This document shows positions 471 to 61,296 of a stretch of 64,000 nt of DNA, in pieces. A program made the translations under genes and the position numbers. Position 1 is the first letter of the stretch. Every line of letters starts with the position of its first letter. Source of the DNA: Nymphaea colorata (taxonomy: Eukaryota; Streptophyta; Magnoliopsida; Nymphaeales; Nymphaeaceae); the NCBI RefSeq assembly GCF_008831285.2, contig NC_045149.1, positions 22,264,535 through 22,328,534 of the forward strand. Direction: 5' to 3'. The notes under the pieces are model-generated. The model ran no database searches, had not been told where the DNA came from, and was given only the letters and a program-made list of their open reading frames with translations.

Positions 471-1715
471 TCAAGTTGATTTGGGGAGGTGATAGGCTAA
501 CATGGCATACAGCACTTGCAGTACAGTGAGAGTAAGCAGAATGAGGACAGCAACGAGGGAGCAGTACGACCACGGGCTCCTGAAAAAGGTGCGTCTCAGG
601 TCAGCCCAGCACGATATCCCTTTGCTCTTGCAATGCTCGTTGATGTCCTTCCGAACCTTAGACAGCATGTCGATTCCATACGTGTCTCCTAGCTTTAGAT
701 CCTTGAAGAAGTCAACGACATCTTCCAGGCTGCCGAGCTGATTGTCGATGATCCCCTGGGAAGTCAAGGCTCGGGCGTCGGCGGCAGTGAGTAGAAGGTC
801 ACTGAGAAGGCGAAGGTAGGACGACACCGGCTGCACAGGTTGGTTGTCATCTTCCACAAGACGTTGCTCGTAAGCCACCATGTTCCTGAAAATGTAGTCG
901 GAGTCCCTGTTGATGAGGATATGCGGGAGCTTAAGAAACGGTCTCCACGACGGCCTGGGATCCCATATCACCATTCCTTCTGCCGCCGGCGAGATGGTAA
1001 CGCCCGAATCCTCGAGATCAATAGCACTGTAGCGTACGCTCATTTCGCCAAAGTTATGGGGAGAGAGACACGCTCCTGTTGCCGAGCCTGCTACGCGGCT
1101 TTGCCCAACCATAATGGGCAGAAATTTCATCCTTGCAGCGTCGAGGAGATGGCAAGCGCCGGCCAGGTTTGGCACCTCAAATGTTTGCATGAGATAGAAA
1201 TCTAAGAACTTGTTGAGCATAATTTCGAATGGCGGATCTCTGTACTGTAGGTGGCTATAAAGGCGTTGAAGAAAGGCCATGGGGATTTGGTTCTTGACCA
1301 CCAACACATCAAGCAGAATATGGCGGAGCATGATGTTGTTCAATGGAAATAAGGTGGGGGAAAACCTGGTGCGAAAGGGATGCGGCTCTGTTGTCATGAT
1401 GTGCATCAACTCCAACACGAAGCATCCATCTCTTACCAGCAGCTTGACAAATTCATCGTTGTCTGGAAGTGTGAAGAATGGGCTATTCGCCCCCTCGTAA
1501 CATTCTCTCACCTCCAGAGCATCGTTTCTTAGGGCATTAACGACATCATCTGTGCTACTAATTTGCGTCCTCAACAGGACCAAATTGAGCACGGTATCCT
1601 CCAACGAGTGGGCGTTACTGACGTAGTAAGGTCCAATGCACAGGAACAAAGGCATCTTTGGCTTGTATGCTCTATCGTTCTCGTACATCATGAAGATGCA
1701 AGGCTTTGGACACAT
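471..1715 (-). CDS. DUF247 (UPF0481) membrane protein, copy 1, intact
   Basis: A 414-codon intronless gene. Seen: IGPYY at residues 27-31, ECY at 71-73, DGCFVLE at 96-102, a KNQIP motif at 141-145, HLLDAAR at 189-195, DLEDSGV at 233-239, RNMVAYEQ at 277-284, GIIDNQLGS at 321-329, and FFRSPW followed by one hydrophobic segment (about 384-408) near the C-terminus. These are landmarks of the plant DUF247 family in the usual order, and the length is normal. The biochemical role of the family is unknown. A C-terminal anchor implies membrane attachment, with most of the protein on one side. The start is placed at 1715 because every copy has MC/MY/MS-x-x-P-x-IF here, just after a GA-repeat leader; the frame stays open for 66 more codons, but they translate UTR repeats. 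Residues 639-835 of the DNA are identical to copy 2, suggesting gene conversion. Confidence 0.93.
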   Translation of the reverse strand: MCPKPCIFMMYENDRAYKPKMPLFLCIGPYYVSNAHSLEDTVLNLVLLRTQISSTDDVVNALRNDALEVRECYEGANSPFFTLPDNDEFVKLLVRDGCFVLELMHIMTTEPHPFRTRFSPTLFPLNNIMLRHILLDVLVVKNQIPMAFLQRLYSHLQYRDPPFEIMLNKFLDFYLMQTFEVPNLAGACHLLDAARMKFLPIMVGQSRVAGSATGACLSPHNFGEMSVRYSAIDLEDSGVTISPAAEGMVIWDPRPSWRPFLKLPHILINRDSDYIFRNMVAYEQRLVEDDNQPVQPVSSYLRLLSDLLLTAADARALTSQGIIDNQLGSLEDVVDFFKDLKLGDTYGIDMLSKVRKDINEHCKSKGISCWADLRRTFFRSPWSYCSLVAVLILLTLTVLQVLYAMLAYHLPKST

Positions 1716-1743
1716 TCTTTCTCTCTCTCTCTCTCTCTCTCTC
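1716..1743. repeat. (GA)n leader directly before the DUF247-1 start codon
   Basis: On the coding strand an almost pure GA run ends a few bases before the ATG. The same arrangement precedes copies 3, 4, 5 and 6, with differing repeat lengths and interruptions, after a shared 'AAAGTTCAGCGGC'-like stretch (diverged in copy 6). GA runs in plant 5' leaders can bind BBR/BPC-type GAGA factors; a role here is inference. Confidence 0.6.
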
Positions 1744-2029
1744 GCCGCTGAACTTTGATAGGACTGATTACATGTAAGAAAAAAATGCACACGAAATTTT
1801 AAACATTTAAAGGAGGATTGGAAACTTGGAATTGAAAAAAAAGTTTTTGAAAATAAGTTTCTGGAAATAAAGGAATAGCTTACTTTGGTGAGTGTATGAT
1901 GACTGAAAACCAAATTTGTTTGAAACTAATTCTTAATTTGATGGATTGGAAACAAGGAAACTTGTTTCTTAGTTTCTTATGTGCGTGAATGTGTCTCTGC
2001 ATTTTCACTGTTCGAAGAATGCATTCACT

Positions 2030-2560
2030 TCAAAGTGGACTGAAATCGATTAACCTATCATAGAATTTCAGATGACTTGCACGAATCAGGTTAATTTCAG
2101 GTTGACAAAGAAAACCATTCCAATTGCACAAATTCGAACTAATTTTCTGTTTATGGAAATCAAATAATGAATAAGATGAACAAGGAATCGGAATGCCGTT
2201 TACAAACAGAAGTTCCTCCCGTTTCAAGGATGCATCTTCTTCCTGAACACAATCTCCACCACGTCCACTCCGAATCAACGTGGCATTAGTAATATTGACC
2301 ACCTCCGATTTCCCAAACAGCAGCTTGACAGCCCCGATCGTCTCTCCGGAGCATGGCCTCTCTAATGTCACGACGACTATCCCACCGGGCCTGACCGTCC
2401 GCTCCATCTCCTTCACGAACCTGGCCGGGAAAAGCGCATCGGCAAGACGAGAAAAAGGGGAGGTTGTGAGGGTCGGCGTCGCTGACGAGGGGCGGTGAAT
2501 CGAAGAAGGGGAGATTGGAGCGGGAGGAAGTGGGGAGGCGGTGGTGGCGGTGTGGGTTAC
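2030..2560 (-). pseudogene. Methyltransferase-like gene relic
   Basis: Two overlapping minus-strand frames together resemble the C-terminal half of the plant S-adenosylmethionine-dependent methyltransferase-like family. One frame carries SDADPHNLPF (about 2460-2500). The other carries LADALFPARFV, then EMERTVRPGGIVVV and a stretch around KSEVVNITNATLI. In intact relatives these parts lie in one frame with more residues between them, so there is at least one frameshift and a small deletion near 2440. No upstream half is visible. The relic sits between DUF247-1 and block R2 and was not seen near the other copies. Family assignment rests on remembered motifs. Confidence 0.6.
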
Positions 2561-2729
2561 TGCAGAAGGTGAGTGGGTGGGTCATGGGTGGTAGAGAGGA
2601 AGATGAGCACGACGGAGGTGGCGACGATTGCCGAGCAAGAGAGCTTGTTCAGCAGGGCGTGGGAGGCGGAACTCCATTCCATCACAGCGACGCAGGAGGA
2701 AGGGAAAGGCGCATGCTTAAAAATGAAGA

Positions 2730-4665
2730 AATAGAAAAAAAGACCGACGAGCGTGCACGCGACAAGTAGTCACCAAGCAAACAAAAGACCACCATCAGAA
2801 GACAAGAAACAAAGTATATATATATATTTTTTTATTTTTGAGGGGGGTTACTGTATAATTTATAAAACTTTTTATGTCAAATGTAAATTTTTTAAAAATC
2901 CTGTATAGTAATTTATTTTCTTAAATTTAAGTAGTAGGCATGGCTTCTGCCAGTGCCTACCCCTAGAGAAAGTTGCGTGCACAACGGCACATGGTATCGA
3001 GTAAAAGAGAAAGAGATATTTTTCTATTTTTAAAAAAATCTTTTAGCAAAAAGTTTTCTTTTTCAATATAATTAATGATATTTTAGTTATTAACCATATT
3101 AATGCACAAATTAGTGCATTCAGTATGGCCGTAGAATCTTTGCAGTTAGCACACATTCAATTGGTATTTCTGCCGTGCTGCGCTTGAAAATGGCAGTCGG
3201 CATGCGTAGCAGGTCAGACTGAGATTACAGCTTCTCCTTATGCTTTTTTTTTTTTTTTTGGTTTTCTTTAATGTTTTATGTTACAGAAACTTCAATGTCA
3301 CATGATAAAATACAGTCTGCCAAATAAACTATATAAATAAAAACAGCATGGATGGAGGAGCCACTGAGAAGAATGATAGCAGATTTCGGAAATGCAGTAA
3401 CAGATAGAGTGAGAAACTGATTGAGAACAGCGCCTTAGGGCTCTGAACAATGCAACTCTGTTCTTTGGATTCTGCCGAGATTGAGAACAGCAACTTTTTG
3501 TTTCTGTTGTATTCACAGCTGTGGGTTGCATGAGAGATGCTAGCTGTTTTTCACATCCACGATCGTTTTTCCTCTTTGCAAAATTAACTGCATAAATCTA
3601 GCCAAGAAGTTGTTTAGAAATAACATTTTTTCAATGTGTAGATTGGACGATATAAGGATATGAAACTTCGTTTTGTATCCACTGTCCTCGGATACCATTA
3701 GATATCATCACAACATGAGTTTATTTTATCTGGCCAACACTCTGTCTTTTTCTCATACATTAACAAATTTACTGATTGCATTTTGCTTATGTGCTGTAGG
3801 ATTGTGATGGCTCTATTCTTCTTGTTCATACCCCAACTTTCGCTGGAGAGAAGAATGCAGATCCAAATGCAAATTCTGTGAGAGGGTTTGAGGTGATTGG
3901 AGCTTTGATATGCATAAATTTGCTTATACTTTGAGACCATTTTATGCTTTCTGTGCAATAACATATTTATTACTACTTCAGCTGTTATTTTCATTTTCCA
4001 AATCGCTAACTATAGTCATCCTTATACAGTTATGCTGCTGTATGTGCATGTATGATGGTAGTGCTTTCGGCTGTACATCAATAGTCTGTGTTCTGTTTAT
4101 ATCATAAGCAGCTTACCTGCACATTAAAGGAGGAAAAATGAGATTCTGATTCGACTGAAACTGACCACTATCTGCCGCAATCTATAAGCTAAGGATCCTT
4201 CATCTAGCCTCTCTCATCCAAAATTAAGGATCCTTCACTTTGTCTGCTTTTTTACGGATTGTTTTTGTATTTAGGGGACCTTTTATCCCCAAATTTTGTT
4301 TATATATTCCCATTTTATCGGCACTTTGTCTGTATCTGCTGTTTCTGCATTTTAGGAGGGGAATTGGGGATGAATGGCTATATGTGCACTAATAACGATA
4401 TCACATCAAGAGTAATAATCTGATTTACCACTCTGCTTTGTGACTCTATCTTGAAGCGTATTCTTCTTTGTAACAATAGGATTGGCTTTCTACATTGAAT
4501 GCATGGAGTAGATTTTAGTCTTGAAGAGCTAATGTGAAGGGTTTTTCTTTTTATACATGTTATATATCTTTACATGTTTTTAAATTTTTTAGTTTACATA
4601 AAATTTACAGCATATTGTATATAATTTATAAATTATATACAGTTTATCGTCCCTATTCATAAATT
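2730..4665. repeat. R2 block, unit 1 (duplicated upstream region)
   Basis: This block matches 35150-36235 and 44880-46825 in the same orientation and order: a 'caagtagtcacca' stretch, 'tgggcatggcttctgcc', the 'aatacagtctgcca' segment, then the peroxidase exon relic (missing in the 35-kb copy). The copies differ by many small indels and substitutions, so the duplication is not very recent. Apart from the relic no coding potential is convincing. Confidence 0.8.
3800..3903 (+). pseudogene. Class III peroxidase exon fragment (unit 1)
   Basis: An acceptor-like 'gtgctgtag' is followed by an open stretch reading DCDGSILL, then [16 protein letters not shown] and VRGFEVIG. This is the start of the second exon of plant class III (secretory) peroxidases, which in the family begins at GCDGS/GCDAS, the calcium- and haem-proximal region. 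The similarity stops after about 34 codons. No first exon with the distal histidine, and no later exons, were found nearby, so it cannot encode an enzyme. A second relic lies at 46015. Confidence 0.8.
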
Positions 4666-4670
4666 ATTAT

Positions 4671-4949
4671 TTGGCATTGTGTTTGAGTACTGCATGTATC
4701 TGCAGAGGAAGATGCTGGAGTTTTAGTACTGCAACATACAGAGACAAGTCAGGATCCATGGCTGTCATGCTTCTTCACCTTCTGGTTCTGATGAAGAGGC
4801 CAACCTCTCAGAGCCAACAGTTTGCACAATTCTGTGTAAATAAAGGAGACTTTGGAAATCAATCCCCCTCTTTTCTTCTACTCTCTTTTCTTACTCACTT
4901 TCTCAGGTTAAGAAGCAGCTTGAAACCGAGCTCAGATCTAGCTAGCTAA
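4671..4949 (+). pseudogene. U/P-type cyclin terminal-exon fragment (unit 1)
   Basis: This aligns with the second half of the better preserved cyclin exon at 51798-52149, from YCMYLQR to the shared stop at 4947-4949. The frame is broken by a TAG at 4724-4726 where the other copy reads GAG, and small indels follow. The 5' junction is abrupt: the R2 sequence ends at 'ttggcattg' and the middle of the cyclin exon begins. It is a truncated relic. Confidence 0.75.
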
Positions 4950-5199
4950 TTCAAAATTTGGCTCTTGCATGTGCTTGCCGGATCTGGATTGGCAAACTTG
5001 ATTCTGAACCCAAATTTGGGTTGTAGGTCAGACCCTGTCTTGGGGCCGAGACTCTTATAACTGCTGTTCCACGAAAAATTATTTCTGGCTCTACCATTGG
5101 TACAAAATCTAAATGCTTGAATCGCTTGGCAGAATGTCTTAAAATATAATGTGCCAAATACAGGATCAGTTTCAAATATAGCCCGAATTTCTTGGGATC

Positions 5200-7139: not shown

Positions 7140-7299
7140 TCCCATCTATTCACACAAATCATGCAATCTTATTAAGCGTAGATCAAACTTTACATTCCAA
7201 CATTTCACTTTATGAACCCCTAAATAAAAAGGGAAGCGGTTGTGAAAAGTGACCTTCCATCGGGAAGCTGAACCTTGCCGTTCTAGCCTCAAGTTTGGG

Positions 7300-8470
7300 G
7301 AGGTGATAGGCTAACATGGCATACAACACTTGGAGCAAAGTGAAAATAAGTAGAATGAGCGCAGCAGCGAGGGAGCAGTACGACCACGGGCTCCTGAAAA
7401 AGGTGCGTCTCAGATCAGCCCATTTGAGATCCCTTCTCTCTCACTGTGCGTGTTGATGTCCTTCCGAACCTTAGACAGCATGTCGATTCCATACGTGTCT
7501 CCTAGCTTTAGATCCTTGAAGAAGTCAACGACATCTTCCAGGCTGCCGAGCTGATTGTCGATGATCCCCTGGGAAGTCAAGGCTCGGGCGTCGGCGGCAG
7601 TGAGTAGAAGGTCACTGAGAAGGCGAAGGTAGGACGACACCGGCTGCAGGTCGTCATCTTCCACAACGCGTTGCCCGTAAGCCACCATGTTCCTGAAAAT
7701 GTAGTCGGAGTCCCTGTTGATGAGGATACGCGGGAGCTTGAGAAACGGTCTCCACGCCAGTCTGGGATCCCATATCATCATTCCTTCGGCGGCCAGCGGG
7801 ATGGTAACGCCCGAGTCCTCGAGATCGATAGCGCTGTAGCGTACGCTCATTTCTCCAAAGTTGTGGGGAGAGAAGCACGCTGCTAATGCTGAGCCAGCTT
7901 CGTCTCTTTGCCCTACCATCATGGGCAGAAACTTCATCCTCGCAGCGTCGAGGAGATGGCGAGCACCGGCCAAGTTTTGCACCTCAAACGTTCGCATGAA
8001 ATGGAAATCTAAGAACTTGTCCAGCATCCTTTCGAACGGTGCATCTTCATACTGTAGCTGCTCATAAAGGTGTTGAAGAAAAGCCAAGGGGATCTGCTTC
8101 TTGATCGCCAGCAGATCTAACAAGATATGGCGGCAAATGGTGTTGTTGATGGGATATATGGTGGGGGAGAACTTGGTGCTCATGGTGCGAAAGGGACGGT
8201 CATCCGTTGTCATGATGTGCATTAACTCCAACACCAAGCACCCATCTCTTACCAGCGTCCTCACGAGTTCATCGATGCCTGGAAGTTTGTAAAATGGGCT
8301 GTTCACCCCTTCATAACAGTTCCTCGCCTCCATTGCAACATTTGTTACGGCATGAACAATCTCCACTTCGCTCCTTTTCTTCCTTTGCAAGACCAGGTCG
8401 AGCACGATCGCCTCCAAATTGTGGGTGTTCGTGGAGAAATAAGGTCCAAGCTTCAAGAAAAGGATGTCTC
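7300..8470 (-). pseudogene. DUF247 copy 2, main body (disrupted)
   Basis: About 350 residues of DUF247 remain: GPYF, NCYEG, DGCLVLELMHIMTT, a KKQIP motif, HLLDAAR, DLEDSGV, RNMVAYGQR and GIIDNQLGS. Three defects are visible. The start codon and first 14 codons are separated by the Copia-1 insertion at 8470/8471. A one-base deletion near 7425 (copy 5 has 'tttcgagatccc', here 'tttgagatccc') shifts frame before the FFRSPW anchor, which survives out of frame at about 7305-7420. Even ignoring the insertion, the two flanks do not restore one frame and lack about six codons seen in other copies. The N-terminal half is the most diverged in the array, whereas 7452-7648 is identical to copy 1. Confidence 0.9.
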
Positions 8471-8946
8471 TGTAAGATCATTTGGTGGATCGGCATATGT
8501 CTATGAGGAATTTCAGACATTATGGCTGTCTTAACATAAATATCTGCTTAAGTGATTGCATTTTTGGATATTACGTCATTTTAGATGGTATGAGGTAATT
8601 CTAAAATGTATATATATCAGTACGGAATTACGGACTCTTTGATGGGTGGAATCCGTAATTGTTCTTATTATAAAATGGTAGTGGTCCCTGGGGTCGTGCA
8701 ATGGTTGCTAGAAACATTAGTTTCTAGGGTTTTCCTCTTCCCCATCTGAGAGAGACCTCAAGTGCGCCGCACGTACCCTGGAAGACTCTGCTGCGATCTT
8801 CCTGTGCACCAGATCAGATGGATTCAGGTACGCTTCCGCTTTAAGTTTAAGGTTATGTTTGATTCAATGATTTAGCATGAGCATGATCTTGTTTTAGGAT
8901 ATATACGTTTGGTTTTGTATATGCGATATGGGGAGAAATCCCAACA
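8471..8946 (+). repeat. Copia-1 5' LTR
   Basis: 476 bp, TG...CA ends, same length as the 3' LTR and about 97% identical by eye. The end at 8946 is fixed by the adjacent primer site. Confidence 0.93.
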
Positions 8947-8948
8947 TT

Positions 8949-8961
8949 TGGTATCAGAGCC
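8949..8961 (+). other. Copia-1 primer-binding site (initiator tRNA-Met)
   Basis: TGGTATCAGAGCC two bases after the LTR is the usual plant Copia primer site complementary to the 3' end of initiator tRNA-Met. Confidence 0.85.
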
Positions 8962-9039
8962 TATGCTTGTTGTTGAATCGTTGATCTTTTGGCGTTCTTC
9001 CCATTTGGATGTTCCTTTCCTTCGACTGCAATTTTTGGT

Positions 9040-9665
9040 TTTCAAAAAAAAAAAAAAAAAACCTTCGAGTGGGCAAGCAACGGAAGCCGTCGGGCTTCCG
9101 CTGCAGTCGCCTGAGACGTAGGGGGTATGGCAAAGGACGACCGGTCTTCGGCGGGCGTCCGTCGCTAGAAGGCGACGGCCGGCCGTCCTCGCTCGTCCCG
9201 CTGGCGGCCCGCCGATGGCTCCCTTGCTTCCGTCGCAGCCATGAAGGGAAAGGAACAGGAGCAGCAGGGGCGGGCGACGAAAGGAAGGTGCGACGGCCGT
9301 CGAAGGGCTGCCACCGGTGACCTCGATGTCGCCGGACGGGCTCATGCGACCCGCCGGCGCCGACCCAACGTCTCAGGACACCCGCCGGTGGTTTTCCTGC
9401 TGCTGTCATTGTTGTTTTCAACCTCACGCTTCAGAAAAGGGGCAGATGTGTATAAAACAGAAAACCGGCCGATTCCGGCCGGCTTTGGGCGGACGATGGC
9501 CGGCCATCGCAGCAGCGACGGCCGGCCTTCTAGGCGGCACCCGCCGGTGGCCACCCACGCAGTTGGGTGGCAGTGGAGACGATGCCCGCGACCGCTCGCG
9601 CGGTCGAGCGGGCGGGCGGGTTGGCCCGGGTCGTGACAGACCCGATCCGGATCCATTGTGATTTA
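9040..9665. other. GC-rich leader region of Copia-1
   Basis: After an A-run at 9043-9060 the base composition changes to strongly GC-rich, with many GCCGGCC/CGGCCG palindromes, unlike the AT-rich surroundings. Open frames occur on both strands but are low-complexity, overlap each other and resemble no Gag domain. I read this as non-coding leader. Confidence 0.6.
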
Positions 9666-9794
9666 AAAAAAAAAAAATTAGTATTGCCGCCTCGCGCCTG
9701 AGCACCTGCGTTTGATTTTTCGGACCGGGTCGAGTTCTGTCGGACCCGACTCGTATCCATTTGGTTTAAGTAAATCAGTTCATTTTTTTTAAAC

Positions 9795-10165
9795 CGGTTT
9801 TGGAAAAGACTCGAACCGGTTCATTCGATTTCAGACCGGTTCAATACGATTCAGAACCGATTCGGTCCGATTCAGACCGGTTCGGACCTTTCAGATTCGA
9901 TTCGGACCATTTTGGGACAGGTTCATTCATTTCAGAACCGATTCGGACCGATTCAGGGCTTTTCAGAACCGGTTCATTCAGTTTTAGAACCGATTCTAGC
10001 ATTTCAGAACTGATTAAGTTGATTTTCGAACCGATTCGGGCATTTTCAGACCGGTTCATTGAGTTCTGGAACCGTTTTTTTGCCATTTTTAACCGGTTCA
10101 TTGGGTTTTGGAACCGATACGGTCTAATTTTGAACGGTTCGTTTAATTTTTAGACCGGTTCAACC
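9795..10165. repeat. Degenerate AACCGGTT/AACCGATTCGG repeat field
   Basis: Dozens of near-repeats of 'cagaaccgattcgg' and 'aaccggttcatt' are spaced roughly 10-35 bp apart without a strict period. The AACCGGTT core is self-complementary. The open plus-strand frame here (rich in F, R, D, S) is a by-product of the repeat. It lies in the untranslated leader of Copia-1. Confidence 0.75.
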
Positions 10166-10964
10166 ATATTTAGGGCCTTTGTGGATGCTTTTATTGTGGT
10201 TTAAGAACGATACAGACCATTTTAAGGCCGATTTAGTAGTTTTTGACCCTCTTAAGCATGATTATGGTACTAGTTTATAAAATTTGGACTCTTTTGGGCC
10301 CATTTCATTAAATCATTTTGGTTTTGTATGTAATGTAGGGCATACGTGTATGGTAATTTGGTTTATGCATCAGGTTTTGGATTCAATGAATGACAAATTT
10401 TGTATGTAAATTTTAATTCATGTATCATGTTTTGCATGTTATTAAAATTATGGGTGTACTTTAGATGAATGTTTGGATTATGAATTTTGATCTTTGGCCA
10501 TGTCTGTTGTTTGAAATGAGTACGTTTGTACTTTATGTCGCCAAAGTGACCTCTGTTGTATGAATTTGCTTGTTTTAAACATTAGATGATAGTATGTTTG
10601 ATCCATGCGGACAATGATCAACCCAAAGGAGGATTGTTGTTTGGTCAGGTTTAAGTATACAAGGCAATGAATATGTGATAATTTTTCAGGTTTCCATGTG
10701 AATAGCGAGTCAATCCAAAGATAGGCTCGTTGTTTGACAGAGTTAATTATTTATATTCATTGTTGACCAAGAATACCACTTGAAGTTAGTATTTCAATCC
10801 AAAGATTGGATATTAACGTTGCACCGGTACCTTGTGATGGGATTTAGGCCATTGTATTTAAATTCATTTATTTTTGTTGTTTCATCTTTGTACATGTATT
10901 GATTGTGAGCATGTTTGGTATTTTTGGTTTGTTCTTTGTACAGTGAGTTCTGCTTATATGATAT

Positions 10965-13510
10965 TTGCAAATTTTGAGTACTATTCCTGAGTTAAATGAT
11001 TCGATTTTTTCAAGTAATAAAAGAAAGACTGTTAAGGAAATTGCAGTTGACCAATCATTCGTTAAGAAACAAAAAAAGCATAAGAAAGGCCTATTAGGCT
11101 GCTTCTTTTGCAAGGGTGAAGGTCATCTAAAAGGGGATTGTACTGAGTATTACGCATGACGTGAAATGAATGGTACACTTTTCACTTTGGTTTGTTTTGA
11201 GGTTAATTTAACTTTAGTACCCAGAAACACTTCGTGGGTAGATTCGGTGTTACTACTTACATAGTGTCTATGCAAGGCTGCCTAAATTGTCGAACGCCAA
11301 ATGATGCTGAAAGATTCATCTATGTGGGCGATGACAAGAAGGCGAAGGTTGAAGCCATAGCAGATTTTTGGTTATTGTTAAAGACTGGTTGCTATTTAAA
11401 TTTGACAGAAACTTATGTGGTGCCGTCTTTTAGACGGAATTTAGTTTCTATTTCCTCATTGGACAAATTTGGTTACTATTATTTATTTGGAGGAAATAAA
11501 TTTAAGTTGTTTCTGTACTCAAATTTGATTGTCACTGGTTCTTTGTCTAGTAGCGATAACCTTTATTTGTTTGATATGGTTGCTTCATATAATGAAATCT
11601 TGCATGTTACGTCTAGTGGTACTAAAAGTAAAATTAACAGATGAGAATTCTGCTATGTTATGGCATATGCGCTTAAGACATATCTCTGAAAAGAGAATAA
11701 AAAGACTTATGTCAAAAGGAATTCTTGAGTCCCTTGATTTTACAGACTTTAAGTTTGCATTGTATGTATAAAGGGAAAATGAACAAACATTAAGGGGTTA
11801 TAAGTTTTATAATCCATTCAGTAAGTCTTTCTTTAAAAGGGAAATGACAATTTCTTTGAGGATATTGAGTTTGGGGAGGTGATCAGGTTAGAAGCATTGC
11901 TTTTGAAGAGAGACTTGAGTCCAATCTATTCAGAAGAAGGCAATGATGTCGATCTCCATACTGAAGAACAAACTCAACAACCTCAAGAAAATCATGTAGA
12001 GGTGCCACTGAGGAGATCCACTAGAGAGAGGAGAAATACAATTTCAAATGATTTTGTCTATCTACAAGAACATAATGTTGATATGGGTTTAATGGAGGAT
12101 GATCCTGTCAACCTCCAGCAAGTAATAAAGAGTTCTAAATCTCTTGAGTGGATGAATGTCATGAATGAGAAAACAAAGTCCATGATAGATAATGACGTAT
12201 GAGAAGTTGTTCCCTTGCCTGAAGGTGTGAAACCCATTGGTTGTAAATGGATATTTAATACCAAGAGGGATTCATTAGGTAACATCGAAAGGTAAAAGAC
12301 ACGTCTTGTCGCTAAGGGCTTTACTCAAAAGAAAGACATTGATTATACAGAGTCTTTCTCTCAAGTTTCGTTGAAAAACTCTTTCAGGACTATAATGGCA
12401 CTTGTAGCTCATTTTGACTTAGAGCTGCATTAGATGGATGTTAGGACAGTGTTTCTAAATGGAGACATTGATGAAAAGATATATATGGTGCAACAAAAAA
12501 ACTTTGTTTCAAGAAATGTAAAGAAAATGGTCTGCAAACTCAAGAAATCCATCTATGGGCTAAAGCAAGCTTTCCGTCAATGGTATTACAAGTTTCATGA
12601 AGTTATAGTTTCATTTGGTTTCGAAACTAATATGGTTGATGAATGTGTATACCAAAACTTCAGTGAGGCAAATTTATCTTTCTAGTTTTATATGTCAATG
12701 ATATATTGCTCACAAGTAATGATGTGGGCATATTGCATGAAACTAAGAATTTTTGTCAACACAATTTGACATGAAGGATCTTGGTTGTGCATCTTTTGTA
12801 TTGGGGATCTAAATGTTTCGAAATCATTCTCTGGCTATTCTTGGATTATCACAAAAGACCTACATTGATAAGGTGCTTCAGCGATATGGCATGAAGGATT
12901 ATAAATCAGGAGATACTCTAGTTGCTAAAGGAGACAAGTTTAGTCTCAAACAGTGCCCTAAAAGTGAAATCGAATCTAAAGAAATGGTGATTCCCTATTT
13001 GTCTGTTGTGGGAAGCCTTATGTATGCTCAGGTTTGTACCCGTTTGGATATTGCGTTTATCATTGAAATGTTAGGCAGATACTTAAATGATCCTAGTATG
13101 AGTCATTGGAAAACAACCGAAAGAGTTTTGAGGTACTTAAAAAGAACATAAGATTTTATGCTCACATACAGGAAGTCAGACCAATGAGAGATCATTGGGT
13201 ATTCAGATTCTGACTTTGCTGGGTGCCAAGATAATGACATCCAATTAGGTTTTGTAATTGCAGAATTTTGTCACGAGGCTGCGTATTATGTATGGTATAG
13301 AAAGACCACTAAGATTGTTGTGTGACAATAATTCAACAGTCATGTACTCTTATAACAACCACAGTTTGTTAAAGTCGAAGCACATCGACATTAAGTTTTT
13401 GGGCTGTTAAAGAGGGGATACAGAATGGTCAGGTGTCTTTAGAGCATATTGGGACAAACTCTATGATTTGCGGATCCGCTTACCAAGGGTTTAACACATA
13501 AGGTCTTTCA
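10965..13510 (+). pseudogene. Copia-1 gag-pol remnants
   Basis: In order: a Gag CCHC knuckle (CFFC...H...C, about 11099-11140); a protease start WVDS that runs into a frameshift where the D-S-G triad should be completed; a GAG-pre-integrase region (LWHMRLRHIS, about 11660-11770); a jump straight to the pre-RT linker (about 11880-12200), so the integrase core is missing; RT pieces in different frames with IYGLKQA (about 12550) and a YVND where YVDD is expected (about 12690); a later RT stretch (12813-13151) and weak RNase H scraps ending near LTKG (about 13480). At least five frame breaks or stops are seen. Non-functional. Confidence 0.85.
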
Positions 13511-14455: not shown

Positions 14456-14499
14456 CTCTCGTCTTCATACATATTGAAGATACAGGGCTCCGAACACAT
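14456..14499 (-). pseudogene. DUF247 copy 2, detached 5' tip
   Basis: The first 14 codons of DUF247-2 (MCSEPCIFNMYEDE) start at 14499 and run straight into the Copia-1 3' LTR. The match to the MC-x-x-P-x-IF-x-MYE start of the other copies is clear. The leader before it is CT/CCT-rich on the plus strand, like the GA leaders elsewhere but more interrupted. Confidence 0.88.
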
Positions 14500-49562: not shown

Positions 49563-50810
49563 TTATTTGGGGAGGTGATAGGCTAACATGGCATACAGCA
49601 CTTGCAGTAAAGTGAGAATAAGTAGAATGAGGGCAGCAGCGAAGGAGCAGTACGACCACGGGCTCCTGAAAAAGGTGCGTGTCAGATCAGCCCATTTCGA
49701 GATCCCTTCTCTCTCACAGTGCTCGTTGATGTCCTTCCGAGTCTTAGACAGCATGTCGATCCCATATGTGTCTCCTAGCTCTAGATGCTTGAAGAAATTA
49801 ACGATGTCGTCCAGGCTGCCCAGCTGGTTGTCTATTATTCCCTTGACAGTCAAGACTCGGACGTCGGCAGCAGTGAGCACAAGGTCACTGAGGAGGCGAA
49901 GGTAGGACGACACCGGCTGCACAGGGTGATTGTCGTCTTCCACAAGGCGTTGTTCATAAGCCACCATGTTCCTCAAAATGAAGTCGGAGTCCCTGTTGAT
50001 GAGGACGCGTGGGAGCTTGAGAAGAGGCGTCCACGCCTGTCTGGGATCCCACATGACCATTCCTTCGGCCGCCGGCGAGATGGTAACGCCCGAGTCCTTG
50101 AGATCAATGGCACTGTAGCGTACGCTCATCTCGCCAAAGTTACAGGGAGAGAAACGCGCTGTTGATGCTGAGCCAGCTTCGTTTCTCTGCCCTACCATCT
50201 TGGGTAGAAATTTCTTCCTTGCAGCGTCGAGGAGATGGCAAGCGCCGGCCAGGTTTAGCTCGTCAAGTGTTTGCATGAAATAGAAATCTAAAAATTTGTT
50301 GAGCATGGTTTCGAATTGCGGATCTCCGTATTGCAGGTGGCTGTAAAGGCGTTGAAGAAAGGCCATGGGGATTTGGTTCTTGACCACCAACACGTCAAGC
50401 AGAATATGGCGGATCATGGTGTTGTTGAGTGGAAATAAGGTGGGGGAAAACCTGGTGACGATGGTGCGAAAGGGATGCGGCTCTGTTGTCATGATGTGCA
50501 TCAACTCTAACACGAAGCATCCATCTCTTACAAGCGTCATCACAAATTCGTCGTTGTTCGGAAATTTGTATAGTGCGCTATTCGCCCCTTCGTAACATTT
50601 TCTCACCTCCAGTGCATCATCTCTTACGGCATTAACGACATCCTCTATGCTACCCATTTGCGCCCTCTGCACGACCAAGTGGAGCACGGTTTCCTCCAAT
50701 GTGTGGTCGATTCTGTAATGGTATGGTCCAATGTTTATGAACAAGGTTTTCCATGGCTTGTACGCTCTACTATCCTCATACATCATGAAGATACAAGGCG
50801 TTGAACACAT
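49563..50810 (-). CDS. DUF247 (UPF0481) membrane protein, copy 6, intact
   Basis: 415 codons from the ATG at 50810; an in-frame ATG 13 codons earlier translates the GA leader and is not used here. Landmarks: IGPYHYR (about 27-33), KCYEGAN, DGCFVLELMHIMTT, a KNQIP motif, HLLDAARKKFLP, DLKDSGV, RNMVAYEQR, GIIDNQLGS, FFRSPW and one C-terminal hydrophobic segment. Differences from the other intact copies cluster in the N-terminal third (HYRIDHTLEETVLHLVVQRAQ) and around MQTLDELNLAG. Its upstream region lacks block R2 and is unique in the window, so it may be expressed differently. Confidence 0.93.
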   Translation of the reverse strand: MCSTPCIFMMYEDSRAYKPWKTLFINIGPYHYRIDHTLEETVLHLVVQRAQMGSIEDVVNAVRDDALEVRKCYEGANSALYKFPNNDEFVMTLVRDGCFVLELMHIMTTEPHPFRTIVTRFSPTLFPLNNTMIRHILLDVLVVKNQIPMAFLQRLYSHLQYGDPQFETMLNKFLDFYFMQTLDELNLAGACHLLDAARKKFLPKMVGQRNEAGSASTARFSPCNFGEMSVRYSAIDLKDSGVTISPAAEGMVMWDPRQAWTPLLKLPRVLINRDSDFILRNMVAYEQRLVEDDNHPVQPVSSYLRLLSDLVLTAADVRVLTVKGIIDNQLGSLDDIVNFFKHLELGDTYGIDMLSKTRKDINEHCEREGISKWADLTRTFFRSPWSYCSFAAALILLILTLLQVLYAMLAYHLPK

Positions 50811-50849: not shown

Positions 50850-51797
50850 CTAGGCTTCCCTTAACTTTCTTGAGGCCAATTAGAAGCAGAAAATTTAGAT
50901 CCTTGAACATTGAAGCAAACTCATCCTAAGCCAACAAATCTCTGGTCATTTATTGTTCTAGAATCCAATGCAAAGTTAGTTAGATTTTTAGGAAAACTTT
51001 CAGCTGAAGAGTTATGGAATATTTCCTTCCCCTTGCCAATAATATAATCACCAAATGCATATGGAATACTCAGTTCTTTCAACCTCCCCAACAAAACAAA
51101 ATTCCTATCGTGTTCATGTTAGGTGATCAAAACGTAGGGTCAACTCTGCACGATTTGGCCTGCCACTTGACCAAATCTTGCATCAGATGAACGTGACCGC
51201 CACCAAATTGGAGTACATTAGGTGCATTAAATGACGCAAACATCAAGCTCCGAACGTTTTTATATACTTGTTATATGTACTTTATACATATGTATATACA
51301 TTTAGTAGACTCTGAACATCTTTTCTATGTTTTCATATGCAGTTATATTACCAAAATTTCAAAACAAACATCTCACTCTTCCTCGGCTCGTAAAAGATTG
51401 AGCTCGGGCTTGGCTTAGTTCATATATTCACGGTCTGCTTAGAAAGAGGTTTTCATGCTTAATCATGAGCAATCCTAAAGAATGGCTGTTAAGTATGTTT
51501 GGCTTGATTACGGGCCCGAGTCTGTAATACTAGTTTAAACCATCATGCTTAATTATCCTGTCGTTTATATGAGTTAAAATACTAAATCAATAATTTATGG
51601 GCTAAAATTCAGTGTTCTTTTGATTCTAATCACAGTTGAGCAGGCAAGCAAGTTGAATTATGCAATATCCTTTTCATATGACAATAATATGACAAAAATT
51701 TAAGTTGGTATAGTGTCACATCAAAGGGTTTGATAATTAAGTGTTAGTTGTGATATTGTGATTGATTTCTTAATTAAACATGTTGTGCTTATTACAG
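50850..51797. other. Unique upstream region of DUF247-6
   Basis: No match to R2 and no recognisable gene or cyclin first exon on the plus strand. The last bases (TTACAG at 51792-51797) look like a splice acceptor for the next feature. Confidence 0.5.
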
Positions 51798-52149
51798 GTA
51801 CTACAACAATGCTTATTATGCCAAAGTCGGTGGGTTTAGCACCACTGAGATGAACTGTTTGGAGATTGATTTCCTTTTCAGCCTCGGATTCCAATTGAAT
51901 GTCACGCCGCCGACGTTCCATGCTTACTGCATGTATCTGCAGAGGGGGATGCTGGAGTTTGAGTACTGCAACATACAGAGACCACTCAGGATCCATGGCT
52001 GTTATGCTTCTTCACCTTCTGGTTCTTCTGATGAGGCCACCTCTCAGAATCAACAGTTTGCTGTTTGTTGTACAGCCACCCCCCCCCCCCTTACTCATTT
52101 TCTCATGTTAAGAAGCAGCTTCAAACCGTGCTCAGATCTAGCTAGCTAA
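51798..52149 (+). pseudogene. U/P-type cyclin terminal exon, orphan
   Basis: After a good acceptor the frame reads [19 protein letters not shown], then [17 protein letters not shown] and [11 protein letters not shown], and stays open to TAA at 52147-52149. This is the second exon of plant U/P-type (CYCU/CYCP) cyclins, whose intron falls just before YNNAYYAK. The exon is intact, but no first exon (the SYLERI...CSPSC region) lies in the 5 kb upstream, where DUF247-6 sits on the other strand. Either the first exon is lost or an unusually long intron holds DUF247-6. The C-terminal tail has a run of ten Cs. Confidence 0.75.
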
Positions 52150-52849
52150 TTCAAAATTTGGCTCTTGGATGTGTTTGTTGATCCACTATCACAAAAAACG
52201 GTCTTATTGAAAAAAGATGAGTATAATATGACAAAACACAGTCGACTATATAATACCCGTTTTATTCTTGTCTTTTATAAAAAAATGTCAGAAAATAAAA
52301 AACGCGTATAAAACTCGTATTATACCATTTTTTTCCGTTTTTTCATTTTTTTATAATTTTTTATTTCTATGACACTTGTATAATTTGTTGAGATTTTTTC
52401 GCTTTATTCCTGAGATAAACAACTTTACTGTATTATCGCAGTATAATACCCATACACATTTTTTTGTAACAATAGCTGGATTTTGGGCTGAAAGTATTAC
52501 AAGTGTCATTCTTGTGAACTGTTTTTGGTTCCGCCACTGGCACAAAATCTGAATAGTTGAATGTCTAGGTAGAGTGTCTTAAAATATGCTGTCCCAAAAG
52601 TACATGATCAGTTTCAAATATAAAACTTAATCTCTTGGGATGGTTAATCCCGGTTCATCAATCTTGTTTGTTTAATAATTCCAATTTCTTAAAAATTAAG
52701 CATTTTGATTCAAATTTCCATGATTCTTGGTATAGCAAACGCTCGTAAGTCTGCTGCATCCTCAATGGTAAAGCAGAAAAGAGAGGATGCCTTTGAGACA
52801 TTCTATCTCATAACCACATATTTGAGATGGGGTGTCTGGTGATTTTGAA
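52150..52849. other. Spacer matching the uninserted form of 4950-5815
   Basis: Shares 'ttcaaaatttggctcttg' and 'cttgggatggttaatcc' with unit 1 and shows the empty site of MULE-like element 1 near 52635. No gene was recognised. Confidence 0.55.
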
Positions 52850-53755: not shown

Positions 53756-53758
<3 letters not shown>

Positions 53759-53789: not shown

Positions 53790-53791
<2 letters not shown>

Positions 53792-53994: not shown

Positions 53995-54145
<151 letters not shown>

Positions 54146-55177
54146 TTGGGTATCTGTCAAAATCAGAGATGTCAATCAGATTTGGTAGGAAAAGAACCGC
54201 TCTTCCATATGTGAATCCAATTTGGGATGTTCATTTTCTTATGGGATTCGAATTCTTCCGCTTGGGCCTAAAAGAAAAATCACTGGAACTGTTGATATCA
54301 TTCTGCCATTTTTGTAAACCTTTTTCCAAGAAGTGCTCTTCATCTGGCCCTCTTAATCGTCTTGCAGTTGTTTCTTGTGTTTCCCCAAAATCTCAAATTG
54401 CATTGTAAAATAGGATTGAATCGGAGACTTGTATAAAATTGACGGCAAATCGAGTAACAATCCATCCCACTCTTACATCAGGTTCAGGCTTTTGGTTTGA
54501 CAGACCCCATAACCCCGCCGGCCTGCCCGCCCCCCACCCAAACACTTAAAAACAGCTTTGGTTCCAGGTTACCATATTTAGGGATATTTGATTTGATTCA
54601 CCAGCACACATAAGGTACCATGTTTTGGTGTGCCAGTAGATCCAATTTAGATCCATATCCAACTTAACAGCTTCAAAAAATTAGTACGAAAAAAATTTGA
54701 TGTCCCATTAAGAAATCAACTTGGATTTGAATTTAAAGATAACATCCCATTGAAATTGGACCCAAAATTCGGATTTAAGTAAATACCTGATCAGATTCGG
54801 ATTCCGATTAGATATACTTTAAATAAATATCCTATATCACATGTCCAAATAGTTTGAAATAATAGGGTTTGCAAAGAGTCAGATGTTAATCTAAATATCA
54901 GATTTAGATATGGCATAGATTCTTCTTGGTTCATATTTTAATCCAAATAATGAGCATTCGAAAGGTTAATTTAGCATAAGAGTATATCTAAGGTAGAAAT
55001 AATGAGTGCAAAACATCATGAATTTTTTCGAACTAATAGAAGTAGAAGGCTAAACTTCGCAACGTTGTACTTAGTTTCATATTGAATTTTGTGGTCGTAT
55101 GGTACGATGAAATACTCCTCTTGCCCACCCGAAACGATTAATAGTTTTGTAATCTGGTGTAGAAACTTAGGCGACAA

Positions 55178-55566: not shown

Positions 55567-55759
55567 GACAATGAATTGCGATCGATCATACCGGACGACT
55601 TCTTTCTTCAGCAAGGGAATGAAACAAGTAGCGACGACAATCTACCAAACACTCAAAAAGAATGCGACTTTCAACTTGCAATCAATCAAACAAATGATGA
55701 GGAGAAAACAGCAATATCATCATATTAGCACATACTTCAACGGCGCTCAGGAAAAAACT

Positions 55760-56821
55760 GACTACATAAACCAACCTGACGTATAGTAAAAAAGGCTACC
55801 TAGCTTAGGCTATATCACAGATTCACAGTGTGACCTTATTATTGCAAACAATAAAACAAACGATGGGACAAATTAAACACACACACAAACACGAAGTAAA
55901 CAAAGTAGCTAGTCAAAAGATTTGGATTCATTTCTCACAATTTTACTAGTTTTAACTTGTTTATTTTTCTTTCCAACTCTCTTTCATTAAATTAACTTCA
56001 ACAAGAAAAGAAAGGTAAATTAAAAATGGTTGTTAGAGTTGTGACAAGCCATTCATTGTCTAGTGTCTGCAGTTCTAGATCCCACGTTCGGCCGAACCCA
56101 ATATTTTGTAGTTGAATTTGAGAAAGCGCAATCATATGATGAATGTGGAATGTTTAAATCTGTGCGTTTCTAAAAACTATAAGAAATTAGTACATACGCT
56201 TGATTTTGCAAAAGTATTTCAAACTTAATTGTCATAGCCTTACTTTTAGACTCATATAATTTGAGCGGGGAAAAAGTATACGGCAATTAAAATTTGTCTT
56301 GATCCACCAATTAACACTCTATTCTCTGTCCACCAAACCACTCTCACGAGAGGAAGCCGGGGCGTGAGAATTGAACACGGGTTATAAAATTCGAGAATAT
56401 TCACTTTTATCAGAAAAATATACTAGCAATTAAAAATAAAACTTTGAAATACTTGTAAAAGAAAAGGGAGCGGGAAGTAGTTAGAGGGGGCAATAGGTTT
56501 GTCACTGAATATTCAATTAGAATTATCTCACTCAGGCTACATTTTACGATACTGGATTGAATTATGGACAGTAGGATTTTACATAAAATAACCATCAACC
56601 ATCAGAAGGCACATGCGTAGATGCTTGGGAATAATGATGCCAATGTGAAAATTTTAAGAACCAAGTTGTTGAAAACTTTCATGTCATGAGGATCTACTGG
56701 AGATTTATTTATTTATTTTTGGTGAAGGGTGCTGACGAGAGATAGGGAATCGGAACCAAAGAAGACTCACATAAGCCTATAACGCTGCTAAGTGAAGTGA
56801 AATTGACAAATTTTACAATTC
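55760..56821. repeat. R4 block, unit 6 (complete)
   Basis: Both halves of R4 are joined here and lead directly into the MITE, giving the reference layout for the broken copies in units 2, 3 and 4. Confidence 0.8.
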
Positions 56822-57201
56822 GAGCTTGAGCTTGGCCAGCTCGAGCTCGACTCGGCTCAAAAAATTCGAGCTCGAGCTTGGATCGAACTCAAGTTGAGCT
56901 CCTTATGGCGAGCTCGAGCTCGATTCGACTACACAAAATCGAGCTCGAAGTGGACTCATTTAACCCATGTAACTCATTTGGCGTTAACGCTTGAAAACGT
57001 TAACGCATGTAACTCGTTTAACTTGTGTAACTTGTGAAAATTTGTTTTTGCCTTAAAGGTTAAAACCGGTGAACCGATTTTGACAATATTATATAGAGCA
57101 CAAGTTTAAGAGTCGAGTCGAGTCGAGTATAAACAAGTCGAGTTCTTGAAACTCGAATTCGGAGTATCTTTTCCGAGCGAGTTGCTCGTTGTGTAGCCCT
57201 A
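56822..57201. mobile_element. hAT-like MITE copy d (left end lost)
   Basis: Same GAGCTCGA-rich interior; ends TGTGTAGCCCTA at 57201. The left terminal TAGGGCTGCACA is missing. Confidence 0.5.
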
Positions 57202-57253
57202 TCTGAACGAGAGAGCGGAAACCTCTTTTAAAGAAAGAGGAATAGGAACAATG

Positions 57254-57528
57254 GTGAGAAGAAAGAAACTGTATTTCTCATTGTATTTCTATGAATCATT
57301 TACAAGGTATATATAGAGGCAATTGGATAAGAATCAAGAAACGATCATATCCCTGATTTCTGCTCGTACAAGATCATCATTCCAAATTCATTGTGATTTC
57401 TCAATCTGCAACGTCTAACAACTCATCCTCTTGATTTGGGTGATCTCTGATTCCTTGATTTTGGGCAATCTCTAATTCCTTGAGTTTGGGTGATCTTCTT
57501 CGACTGTTACGGGAAGTAACGTTCAACA
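57254..57528 (-). repeat. Copia-2 3' LTR (inner end precise, outer end approximate)
   Basis: Begins TGTTGAACG on the minus strand right after the purine tract. With no second LTR to compare, the outer end near 57254 is chosen from a CA terminus. Confidence 0.55.
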
Positions 57529-57535
57529 CTCCCCC

Positions 57536-60500
57536 TCAAGTTGGTCCTCCAGGATTGATGAGACCCAACTTGCATCTGAATTTTACAAACGAGTCTTTTC
57601 CCAATGCCTTAGTAAAAATGTCTGCAGTTTGATTTTCAGTGTCAATTTGCTTAGTACAAATCTCATTTCTTTGGATCTTCTCTCGAATGACATGGCAGTC
57701 GATTTCAATATGTTTCGTTCTTTCGTGAAACACCGGATTTGCAGATATGTGTATTGCTGCTTGATTGTCACAATGTAATTCCATTGGTTGATGAAGAATA
57801 ATTCCAAAATCATTAAGAATGTACTTTATCCAAGTTATCTCACAAGAAGTCAAAGCCATTGCTTTATATTCGGCTTCGGCTGAAGACCTTGAAACAGTTG
57901 TTTGTTTCTAAATTTTCCAAGATATTGGACTTCCTCCAATAAAAATGCAAAAACCTGAAGTGGATCTCTTTGTCATTGGGCAAGATGCCCAATCTGAATC
58001 ACAAAAGGCTTTGACTATCATGTCACTATGGGACCATAAGAAGACCCCATAACTTGTTGTAGATTTGATGTAGCGAAGGATCCTGAAAGCTGCCTCTAAG
58101 TGTGTTGTTCTTGGTTGCAACATGAACTAACTCAAACATGTGAACGCTGTGCATAATATCAGGTCGTGTAATGGTTAGATGACCAAACGACCAATTATTT
58201 TCCTAAAAAAGGTGGGATCTTGTAATAGTTGCCCTTTTTCATCATCCAACTTTAAATGTTGCTCCATGGGTGTTTCACTAGGTTTAGCACCACTATATCC
58301 TACTTCATGTAAGATATCTAGTGTGTACTTCTTTTGGGATAAAAAAATCCCTTTTTTGGATCGGGCTACTTTAACACCCAAGAAATATTTTAAATCTCCC
58401 AAATCCTTCAATTGAAATTTGTTATTGAGGATGACTTTCAGTTTCTCAATGGCATCACGATTGTCTCCCGCAATGATTATAACATCAACATACACAATGA
58501 TGAAAATATTCCCTTGTTTATTGATATTGAAGAACAAGGAATAATCAGCCTTAGATTGAGAGATGCCAAGGTGTTTGAGAGTCTCTGATAGTTTAAAAAA
58601 CTAGTTGCGAGATGACTGTTCGAGACCATATAAGGATTTGTTTAGCCGACACACCTTGTTCTCCCCTTGTCGGGTAAACCCAGGAGGCAGTGTCATGTAG
58701 ACTTCTTCATGTAGATCACCATGGAAGAAGGCATTGTTGACATCAATTTGAGAAAGACTCCAACCTTTGATGGCTGCAACTGATAAAAGACATCGAATAG
58801 TGGTGATTTTAGTAACCGGAGAAAATGTCTCTGTGTAATCAATGCCTTCGGTTTGAGTATACCCTTTAGCAACGAGTCGAGCCTTATAACGTTCAATAGT
58901 AGCATTGGCATGATACTTGATTTTATAGACCCATCGGCAACCAATAGGGTGTTTGCCTGGTGGGAGAGAAACGATATCCCAAGTTGAGTTGGCTTCTAGT
59001 GCCCAAATTTCAGCTGCCATAGCGTCTCTCCATTCTTGATGTTGCATTTCCTCTTGGAAGGTGGACGACTCATGGTGATTGAGAATAGATGTAAGGAAAG
59101 CTTGATAAGTAGGAGAAAACTTGTCTAAATGAAGGTAGTGACACAGGGGGTACCTCGTTCCTTTAGGTTGCATATGTGCCGACATCGATTCAGAAGATGT
59201 GGGCTGGGTGATGGAATGACATTGATATTCCTTAAGGTGTGAAGGTGGAACGCGCCGTCTAGTTAATCGCCGCAATTGAGTGTCAGAAGAATCAATGTGG
59301 GGGGTAACAATATCAACGATGTTAGGTTGCTGGTGATCTGATGGTGGTGCCGGTGGTGAGGGTGTAGGTGATTGAGGTGGAGGAGGTTGTGGTGGGCTGG
59401 TTGGGGAAGGTTGGGGTAACATATTCAAGTGATTCTTGAGATGGTAGAGGTATAACAACTTAACTATCTTGGACTTGGTAATTTTGAAAAGGAAATGTAT
59501 TTTCTATAAACTTAACATCTCGACTAGTGAAAATTTCATTTGTGTCAAGATCATAGAGTTTATCGACATGTTGACCATTAGGGTATCCGACAAAGACACA
59601 CTTACGTGATCGTGAGTCAAATTGATGAGTTTTGCCAATGTTATATGCATAACACAGGCAACTAAAAACACGAATGTGATTATATTTGGGAGTTTGTCCA
59701 TAAAGAACTTCATAGAGGGTTTTTTCTTGTAAAGGATGAGTAGGCAAATGATTGAGTAAATAAGCAGTAGTTAAAACACATTCCCCCAAAATTTTATAGG
59801 CAAGCATGCTTGAAAACGAAGGGTGCGAGCAATATTTAAAATATCTTTGTGTTTGCGTTCAACCACTCCATTTTGTTGAGGATTGGCGACACAAGAATGT
59901 TGACGCTCGATGCCTTTATGATGTAAAATATTTTCCATATTTGCAGAAAAAAATTCAGCTCCATTATCACTTCGGATTTTTTTAATGGAGGTTTGAAATT
60001 GATTTTCCACTAAATTGATAAATTTTTCAATATAAAAGAATGCCTCAGATTTATAATGCATAAGAAAAAGCCATGTGCAACGTGAGAAATCATCCACAAC
60101 AGTGAGGAAATAAAGAGCGCCAGATAGTGAAGGTGTTTTGTAACCTCCTCAAATATCACAATGAATCAATTGAAATATGCTAGTGGTGGATATGGAACTA
60201 TTAGGAAAAGGTAAACGAGTTTGTTTGGCAAGATAACATATGGAGTAATGCTCATTAACATGAGAGGAATCAATGAAACTAAACAAGGACTTTAAACGAG
60301 CAAGTGAAGGGTGACCGAGTCTAACATGCCATAGAACAGATTGGTTTGGTGAGGCAGCGGCGGCGCGTGGTTCTTCATCCTCAAGGATACACAAGCCATT
60401 CTGCATTCTACCCTTCCCAATCGTCTTCATCTTGCGTCGGTCCTGAATGGTACAAGAATGAGTATCAAAGATAACTTGACAATTGTTTTGAGCAACCAAT

Positions 60501-61205
60501 TTGGACATAGATAAAAGGTTACAAGAAAAGGTGGAAACATATAAGACATGATGTAACGTAATAGAAGAATTTAAATACAACTGACCAACATGGGTGACTG
60601 GAGTGGTGGAACCATTAGGAAGCTTAACGGGATTAGATTGAGCTAAAGAAGGGGAAATGAGGTTAGACAAGAATTTAGTAATATGGTGTGTAGCTCTAGT
60701 ATCAATTATCCATACTTGAGAGGAAGCTAAACAAACAATGAGTGACTCTAACATACCTGCCAGGTTGACCTTGGGTGTTTTGAAGGTTTGCTTGAGGCTG
60801 CTGTCGTTGGCCATTAGAAGTGCTCTTCTTGGGAAAATCGTGAAGGAGGTAGCAGCGAGCCTTAATATGCCCAAGTCGTCCACAGTGTTCACATTGAGGT
60901 CTGGTTCGACCCTTAAAGTGGTTGTTGTCATGATTCTGTTTCTTTACAATAGCTGCTGAAATGTTGTCAGATTGTAGGGGAACGTGAAGATCACGTTGGC
61001 ATTCCTCTTGAACCAGCAGGGCGTAAGCTTTGGACGTGTTGGAGACAAGATTCATGAGTAAGAAAGTACCATGTTGTTGGATCTCTCCTAAGAAACAATG
61101 ACAGAGTGGGGACCCGTGGGTTTCGGAATAGAACCATCAACAAAACCCATCTTATTTTTGGCTAAAAGGGCCATGGTCATGGCTCTTCTCCACGTTTTAT
61201 AATTA
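57536..61205 (-). pseudogene. Copia-2 gag-pol remnants
   Basis: From 61205 downwards: a Gag N-terminal stretch (NYKTWRRAM, then LLAKNKMGFVDGSI); a CCHC knuckle (CEHC...H...C, about 60890-60930); a protease motif WIID followed by T-R-A where the catalytic triad should read D-S/T-G; GAG-pre-integrase with its H-H-C-C residues; a TGA at about 60148 before the integrase core; an integrase core with D, D and E in DDFSR, SDNGAEF and VERKH; RT N-terminal part to SLYGLEQ and a TAG at about 58601; an RT active site YVDV in place of YVDD (about 58480); RNase H with CDSDWAS and CDNQAA. At least five breaks are seen. Confidence 0.88.
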
Positions 61206-61236
61206 TCTCTAGTGAGCTGTTGGGATACAAGACACG

Positions 61237-61296
61237 TCCCCGAAAAATCAAGATTCGGGCGTCGGCAGCAGTGAGCACAAGGTCACTGAGAAGGCG
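61237..61296 (-). pseudogene. DUF247 copy 7, 60-bp scrap
   Basis: The minus strand reads RLLSDLVLTAADARILIFRG, matching residues about 302-321 of the other copies almost exactly. It is bounded by truncated Copia-2 on one side and by the TG start of a new LTR at 61297 on the other. Its orientation matches the rest of the array, so it looks like what remains of the next gene in the series. Confidence 0.85.

Follow-up and report, generated by a model that had tools for sequence, protein, structure and literature searches.

The window analysed here, a stretch of 64,000 nucleotides from the 407.8-Mb genome of Nymphaea colorata (C12:22264535-22328534, contig NC_045149.1), carries several tandem copies of an intronless gene of the DUF247 family. 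In these copies an atypical DUF247 subfamily very probably forms a lineage-specific tandem array that evolved by birth-and-death: a founding unit was copied, long terminal repeat (LTR) retrotransposons broke some of the copies, and two of the surviving genes (E and F below) and probably a third (A) are kept by selection. The structure of the array, the breakages, the mosaicism of the copies and the signals of selection can be read directly from the DNA. The copies are local, their flanks are duplicated, and intact and broken members are mixed, which is the pattern of tandem birth-and-death. The array is of a known kind, with a history that is unusually well preserved. Here, the birth of a DUF247 array can be followed stepwise, from the founding unit over a hitch-hiking cyclin exon and swapped upstream regions to the insertions that killed single copies.

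DUF247 copies and extent of the array

Six copies, named A to F in this analysis, and a scrap G lie on the minus strand of the window; negative coordinates and those above 64000 extend the window numbering into the DNA outside. PF03140 (DUF247) matches 6 of 6 copies above its curated cut-off (129-207 bits against 24.8, E-values of 5e-37 to 8e-61), and the number, strand and spacing proposed in an earlier reading of the window made from its letters only (the sequence-only reading) were confirmed. Copies A (471-1715) and C (21285-22529) are single open frames of 414 codons, E (43294-44541) and F (49563-50810) of 415 codons, so that the four copies called intact are indeed open. One strong C-terminal hydrophobic segment is present in each of these four proteins (best 19-residue hydropathy 2.48, start at residue 388-392), and the array proteins are probably C-terminally membrane-anchored.

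Three broken members had also been claimed. Copies B and D are broken, but G is the tail of a further copy H and no separate member. The main body of B (about 7294-8463, minus strand, Pfam match) is severed from its N-terminal piece (14456-14499, minus strand, start codon near 14499), which sits beyond the right LTR of an element inserted at 8471-14455 on the plus strand. Copy D (33571-34817, minus strand, Pfam match) is frameshifted, its frame changing between codons 341 and 345. Scrap G (61237-61296, minus strand, 60 bases) belongs to copy H as its 3' piece; the body of H lies outside the window at 68096-69283. The LTRs of the element in B (8471-8946 and 13980-14455) are 96.8% identical (K80 0.032), and the element splitting H (left LTR 61297-61668, partner LTR 67722-68094) and the one between J and K show K80 values of 0.059 and 0.055, respectively. 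Because such LTR pairs sit between the halves, G is counted as part of H and J as part of K, and three copies (B, H/G and J/K) are split by LTR elements, whose flanking target duplications match only partially. Other copies are frameshifted or truncated. The frames at 12296-12682 in the element within B resemble an RVT_2 frame at 58601-59422. As a side observation, the stretches 57228-60782 (near G) and 80244-83614 (near J) are related to each other (92-93% identical) and carry Copia-type frames.

The array had been described as seven-membered and placed at 471-61296. The copies are there, but the array continues for ~170 kb beyond the window, to about 232.6 kb in window numbering. With flanks of 30 kb on the left and 170 kb on the right added (264 kb in all), 16 clusters of DUF247 matches were found, all on the same strand except the remnant M, which lies outside the window on the plus strand. 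Merging G with H, J with K and perhaps O with P, which may be the halves of one copy, leaves 13-14 loci, 9-10 of them broken. Full-length open frames are restricted to A, C, E and F, all within the window; the copies found outside are truncated, split or stopped.

This subfamily is set apart from the rest of the genome. Genome-wide, 73 DUF247 matches are among those listed, counted exon by exon, and on C12 none of the matches listed lies left of copy A. With copy F as query, at least 50% identity over at least 100 residues is reached on C12 alone, at 22.265-22.497 Mb; elsewhere a 56-residue scrap on C9 was found, and the next best gene, on C4, reaches 35% identity. Identity of the array proteins to eight further DUF247 proteins of this genome is 21-35%. 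In a tree of 12 proteins of this genome, from which L008 with its stops is left out, the array and C4:21.775 form a group with support 100, on long branches. A nucleotide tree of 11 of the 15 copies (J, L, M and N left out) supports B+K (100), D+H (91), B+K+P (90) and F+I (89), the remaining nodes reaching at most 69; J and K are 94% and 92% identical to B. A second DUF247 cluster lies at C1:18.53-18.91 Mb with 30 matches among those listed, and full-length frames of about 480 residues are present on C1 at 18.838, 18.905 and, as a third, 19.306.

Founding unit and growth of the array

The spacers duplicate the DNA between a cyclin gene and copy A, cyclin exon 2 included. This cyclin gene, located left of A at -9979 to -6538 (L011), looks intact; both exons match the Pfam family Cyclin (E 6e-25 for exon 1, 3e-11 for exon 2), a GT follows exon 1, an AG precedes exon 2 and the frame is kept when the exons are joined by eye. 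Pfam gives Cyclin only; we take the gene to be of the P/U-type. The order in the left flank is cyclin gene, R1-R4 and then copy A, where R1-R4 denote blocks recurring in the spacers. The founding unit would have been ~9.5 kb long, reaching from -7727 to about 1760 and consisting of the cyclin intron end, exon 2, spacer and DUF247 gene. It would have been copied head to tail and later re-copied in larger blocks, for which the parallel between A-?-B and H-I-K speaks, presumably by unequal crossing-over and gene conversion.

The recurring blocks comprise the gene flanks, block U (upstream of A, D and E), the cyclin-derived block V and R1-R4. Over lengths of about 0.1-2 kb they share 69-97% identity, and they keep their order in several units, in agreement with the ordered duplication of R1-R4 already noticed from the letters. 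Block U of copy A (2704-4679) recurs at 35203-36237 (D) and 44869-46829 (E), R1 (16991-17983) at 37618-38751 and 54127-54991, R2 together with R4 (19455-20541) at 39207-39466, 55715-56075 and 41819-42570, and R3 (24234-25222) at 41232-41947 and 56104-57022. One cyclin copy lies upstream of F (intron end and exon 2, 50859-52659), where the open frame 51778-52146 on the plus strand is 98% identical to the parent cyclin protein over 99 residues. The exon 2 copy of unit A (4688-4977, plus strand) is truncated, and the remaining ones are truncated or stopped.

In a genome search with R1 that scored 40 of 440 candidates, 7 of the 44 matches listed reach E 1e-66, six in the array and one on C6, and the other listed matches are mostly 69-76% identical to the middle part of R1. 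A dispersed repeat lies inside R1 (positions about 500-845 of block 37618-38751) and has copies of about 69-76% identity on many chromosomes. Coding signal in the spacers was assessed on the best four frames per block, the longest of which has 92 codons compared to 295-514 in controls. Short R1 frames show low ratios (0.23 over 53 codons and 0.32 over 87 codons in one pair, 0.34-0.63 in other pairs), a weak signal that R1 might be coding. Separately, the spacer between D and E holds an open frame of 127 residues on the minus strand (40243-40626) without a Pfam match.

Segment exchange and selection

The open copies A, C, E and F were used for the codon tests; in-frame segments of B and D entered only when they are named. 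Along the coding sequence, the sites that group E with A or with C run in clusters (27 of 34 neighbours alike, 17.2 expected, permutation P 0.0003). Furthermore, C and E diverge by K 0.116 in the gene and by 0.043 in the 3' flank. As judged from these coding sequences, the copies are shown to be mosaics that exchange segments.

The mean ratio of nonsynonymous to synonymous substitution rates (dN/dS, omega) over the four open copies is 0.56 (P 6e-6 against 1). By segment, it amounts to 0.24 in codon columns 233-345 and to 0.72-0.87 elsewhere, the latter not different from 1. Changes private to one copy cannot be created by exchange among the six copies, although exchange with copies outside could do so. 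The ratios of amino-acid to silent private changes are 0.18 for E (P 0.003), 0.33 for F (P 0.007), 0.41 for A (P 0.08) and 1.08 for C (P 1.0) among the open copies, and 0.33 for B (P 0.003) and 0.59 for D (P 0.49) among the broken ones. A dN/dS comparison of the intact copies had been proposed together with the sequence-only reading; on this evidence E and F look constrained and A is probably so as well, but C gives no sign of purifying selection and is taken as open but unconstrained, or undecided. The low ratio of B fits a gene that was working until lately.

Several results weigh against this picture. Site models favour a small class of codons with omega 3.2-3.4 (nominal P 0.012 and 0.026), omega on the C branch is fitted as 2.9 (P 0.004 against 1), and in a comparison of the four open copies C has 40 private amino-acid changes to 4 silent ones, a ratio of 2.76. 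The site-class and C-branch results could reflect diversifying selection. Both tests are weakened because segment exchange biases them. Positive selection on C was considered on account of the four-copy omega of 2.9 and rejected, since against all six copies its private changes are 15 to 4, i.e. a ratio of about 1 (1.08). Compared with pooled A, E and F, the private changes of C give P 0.058, and compared with B and D P 0.16.

A further point of this kind is that the private-change ratio of A, E and F taken together is no different from that of the pooled broken copies B and D (P 0.55). Together with the 9-10 broken loci, this would fit an array that is dying or dead throughout, its open frames having survived by chance. 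Such a decay is improbable, as E and F each carry fewer amino-acid changes than expected under neutrality and omega over the four copies is well below 1. The birth-and-death evolution that had been proposed for the array is upheld by 4 open frames among the 13-14 loci, LTR elements in three copies, mosaic exchange and signs of purifying selection in some of the survivors; E, F and probably A would still be kept by selection.

Upstream regions

A comparison of 2.5 kb upstream of nine copies resulted in four classes, namely A/D/E/H, F/I, B/K and C alone. The classes are not strictly separate, as short pieces are still shared between them, for example a distal stretch of 253 bp that is 97% identical in B and F. 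Because the near-upstream regions form four classes, the copies would differ partly in the time and place of their production. Immediately upstream of F and I stand the end of the cyclin intron and exon 2, starting 49 bases before the ATG of F. In C, about 52 bases before the ATG are common to the A/D/E/H class, and a fragment of an S-domain receptor-like kinase gene is placed directly upstream (22586-23489, minus strand). The stretch 22584-23326 matches one receptor-kinase gene of an adjoining array, and by this match the upstream DNA of C is replaced by the fragment.

The neighbouring S-domain receptor-kinase array

The adjoining array of S-domain (G-lectin) receptor-like kinases spans C12:22.37-22.56 Mb, about 108-294 kb in window numbering; like its fragment at copy C, it had no place in the sequence-only reading. 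The fetched stretch contains seven genes that have lectin and kinase parts, along with fragments, all on the minus strand, and both parts are open in 4 of the 7. Pfam scans of three of the seven gave S_locus_glycop, PAN and kinase domains, with B_lectin in the two for which the first exon was scanned. Genome searches with PF00954 and PF01453 found further receptor kinases on C12 up to 22.56 Mb. The DUF247 remnants L, M, N, O and P lie among or beside the kinase genes. Among the 40 PF00954 matches listed, 14 clusters are formed at 200 kb, and the one on C12 is one of two large ones.

It has been suggested that DUF247 proteins may need a kinase partner (PMC13033167), and the receptor-kinase neighbour is relevant to the question which protein signals on behalf of DUF247 proteins. 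A locus in which the DUF247 proteins act with the adjoining S-domain kinases, which would supply the signalling domain that DUF247 lacks, is nevertheless unlikely. Seven kinase genes and fragments do stand amid DUF247 remnants on, M excepted, the same strand, a kinase fragment abuts copy C, and of the 16 DUF247 clusters 2 have an S-domain cluster within 100 kb, where 0.18-0.27 are expected (P 0.013 uniform, 0.035 by rotation). However, overlap alone, seen once, gives P 0.055 and 0.088, the DUF247 pieces amid the kinases are all broken, and the adjacency may reflect a duplication-prone region only. Because the closeness test was picked after the array had been seen and used the PF00954 list only, the closeness, weakly above chance, is taken as a lead. 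Very little likelihood is given to the stronger form, in which the DUF247 array and the interlocked kinase array are one compound recognition locus, with anchored DUF247 proteins paired with kinases. If true, this would place a compound recognition locus outside the grasses, in one of the flowering plant lineages that branched off earliest. The second close pair is the DUF247 gene at C1:21636904 and an S-domain kinase match at C1:21702877, 66 kb apart.

Comparison with self-incompatibility and other DUF247 loci

In the literature searched for DUF247 together with Nymphaea or with birth-and-death, no report of this array was found. For Quercus lobata, PMC9018854 describes an extensive local block of DUF247 duplicates, many of them partial, with 34 complete and 22 partial genes compared to 4 open frames at 13-14 loci here. 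In contrast to that block, the array of Nymphaea is one subfamily at one locus, bar a scrap, and has a cyclin exon in its founding unit. For the oak block, the same paper proposes a role in non-self-recognition and states that verification is still needed. A comparable repertoire of many DUF247 genes in N. colorata, for which segment exchange would make new combinations, appears quite unlikely, as there are only four open copies, one of them unconstrained. In rice, the DUF247 family has 69 genes and duplication-formed clusters as well, but passages of PMC11184719 report three tandem duplications and mention no comparable array.

The sequence-only reading had further suggested that the array might be a recognition locus. 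At the S and Z loci of grasses, two DUF247 genes per locus and a small stigma-expressed partner are multi-allelic (as outlined in PMC9623065 and PMC9825253). The DUF247 proteins there have 508-559 residues and are encoded by intronless genes, and the partner is secreted, has one intron and 82-122 residues (PMC9825253); the same sizes are given in the review PMC13033167.

Candidates for such a partner were picked as signal-peptide-like open reading frames (ORFs) by a home-made hydropathy rule applied to single-exon frames, which gave 24 ORFs in the window and, among 980 start-codon frames in the 264 kb, 43 with at least 2 cysteines. No small secreted single-exon ORF intact across all units was found in the window or the 264 kb, a scan that two-exon genes could escape; the earlier finding that no such partner gene is repeated in the units was reproduced to this extent. 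The ORF 3910-4107 in block U is stopped in both other copies and 38810-39031 in its other copy, 22504-22788 lies inside the receptor-kinase fragment, and the R1 ORF 17111-17278 (55 codons) is open at 54241, where its ATG is kept, is open but lacks an ATG in the left copy, and carries a stop in the copy at 37723. The remaining signal-peptide-like recurring ORFs in the DUF247 part are kinase or retrotransposon pieces. In the spacers of the kinase array, ORFs at 123699, 154379, 155615 and 166257 with 215144 recur in part without stops; among these, the signal-peptide-like 166257-166454 recurs partially at 215144-215341, both outside the window.

A grass-type self-incompatibility locus with pollen DUF247 receptors and a small secreted stigma partner is thus very unlikely: the family, the single-frame intronless genes (4 of 4 here, as read from the letters), the C-terminal membrane segment that they share with grass S and Z genes (PMC9623065, PMC9825253), the several diverged copies and the self-incompatibility suggested or confirmed in some Nymphaea (a passage of PMC12802289) are outweighed by the length of 414-415 residues instead of 508-559 (PMC9825253), the low identity to the eight other DUF247 proteins of the genome, the lack of an intact recurrent single-exon ORF and of a paired DUF247-partner unit in the scans, and the fact that most copies are dead. 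In our judgement, a signalling or a wall/stress role, as reported for other DUF247 genes, would be likelier than self-incompatibility.

For the lineage-specific birth-and-death array favoured here, the genes worth testing are A, E and F first, with C as contrast. Copy F as query found no relative among solved structures (best E 0.79) and no DUF247 in a close-relative search of viral and genomic contig collections, and in the window no Rfam family reached its gathering score and no tRNA gene was found. Two tandem repeats were recorded, one with 3.5 copies of a 103-bp unit at 25443-25800 and one with 2 copies of a 107-bp unit at 62676-62887.

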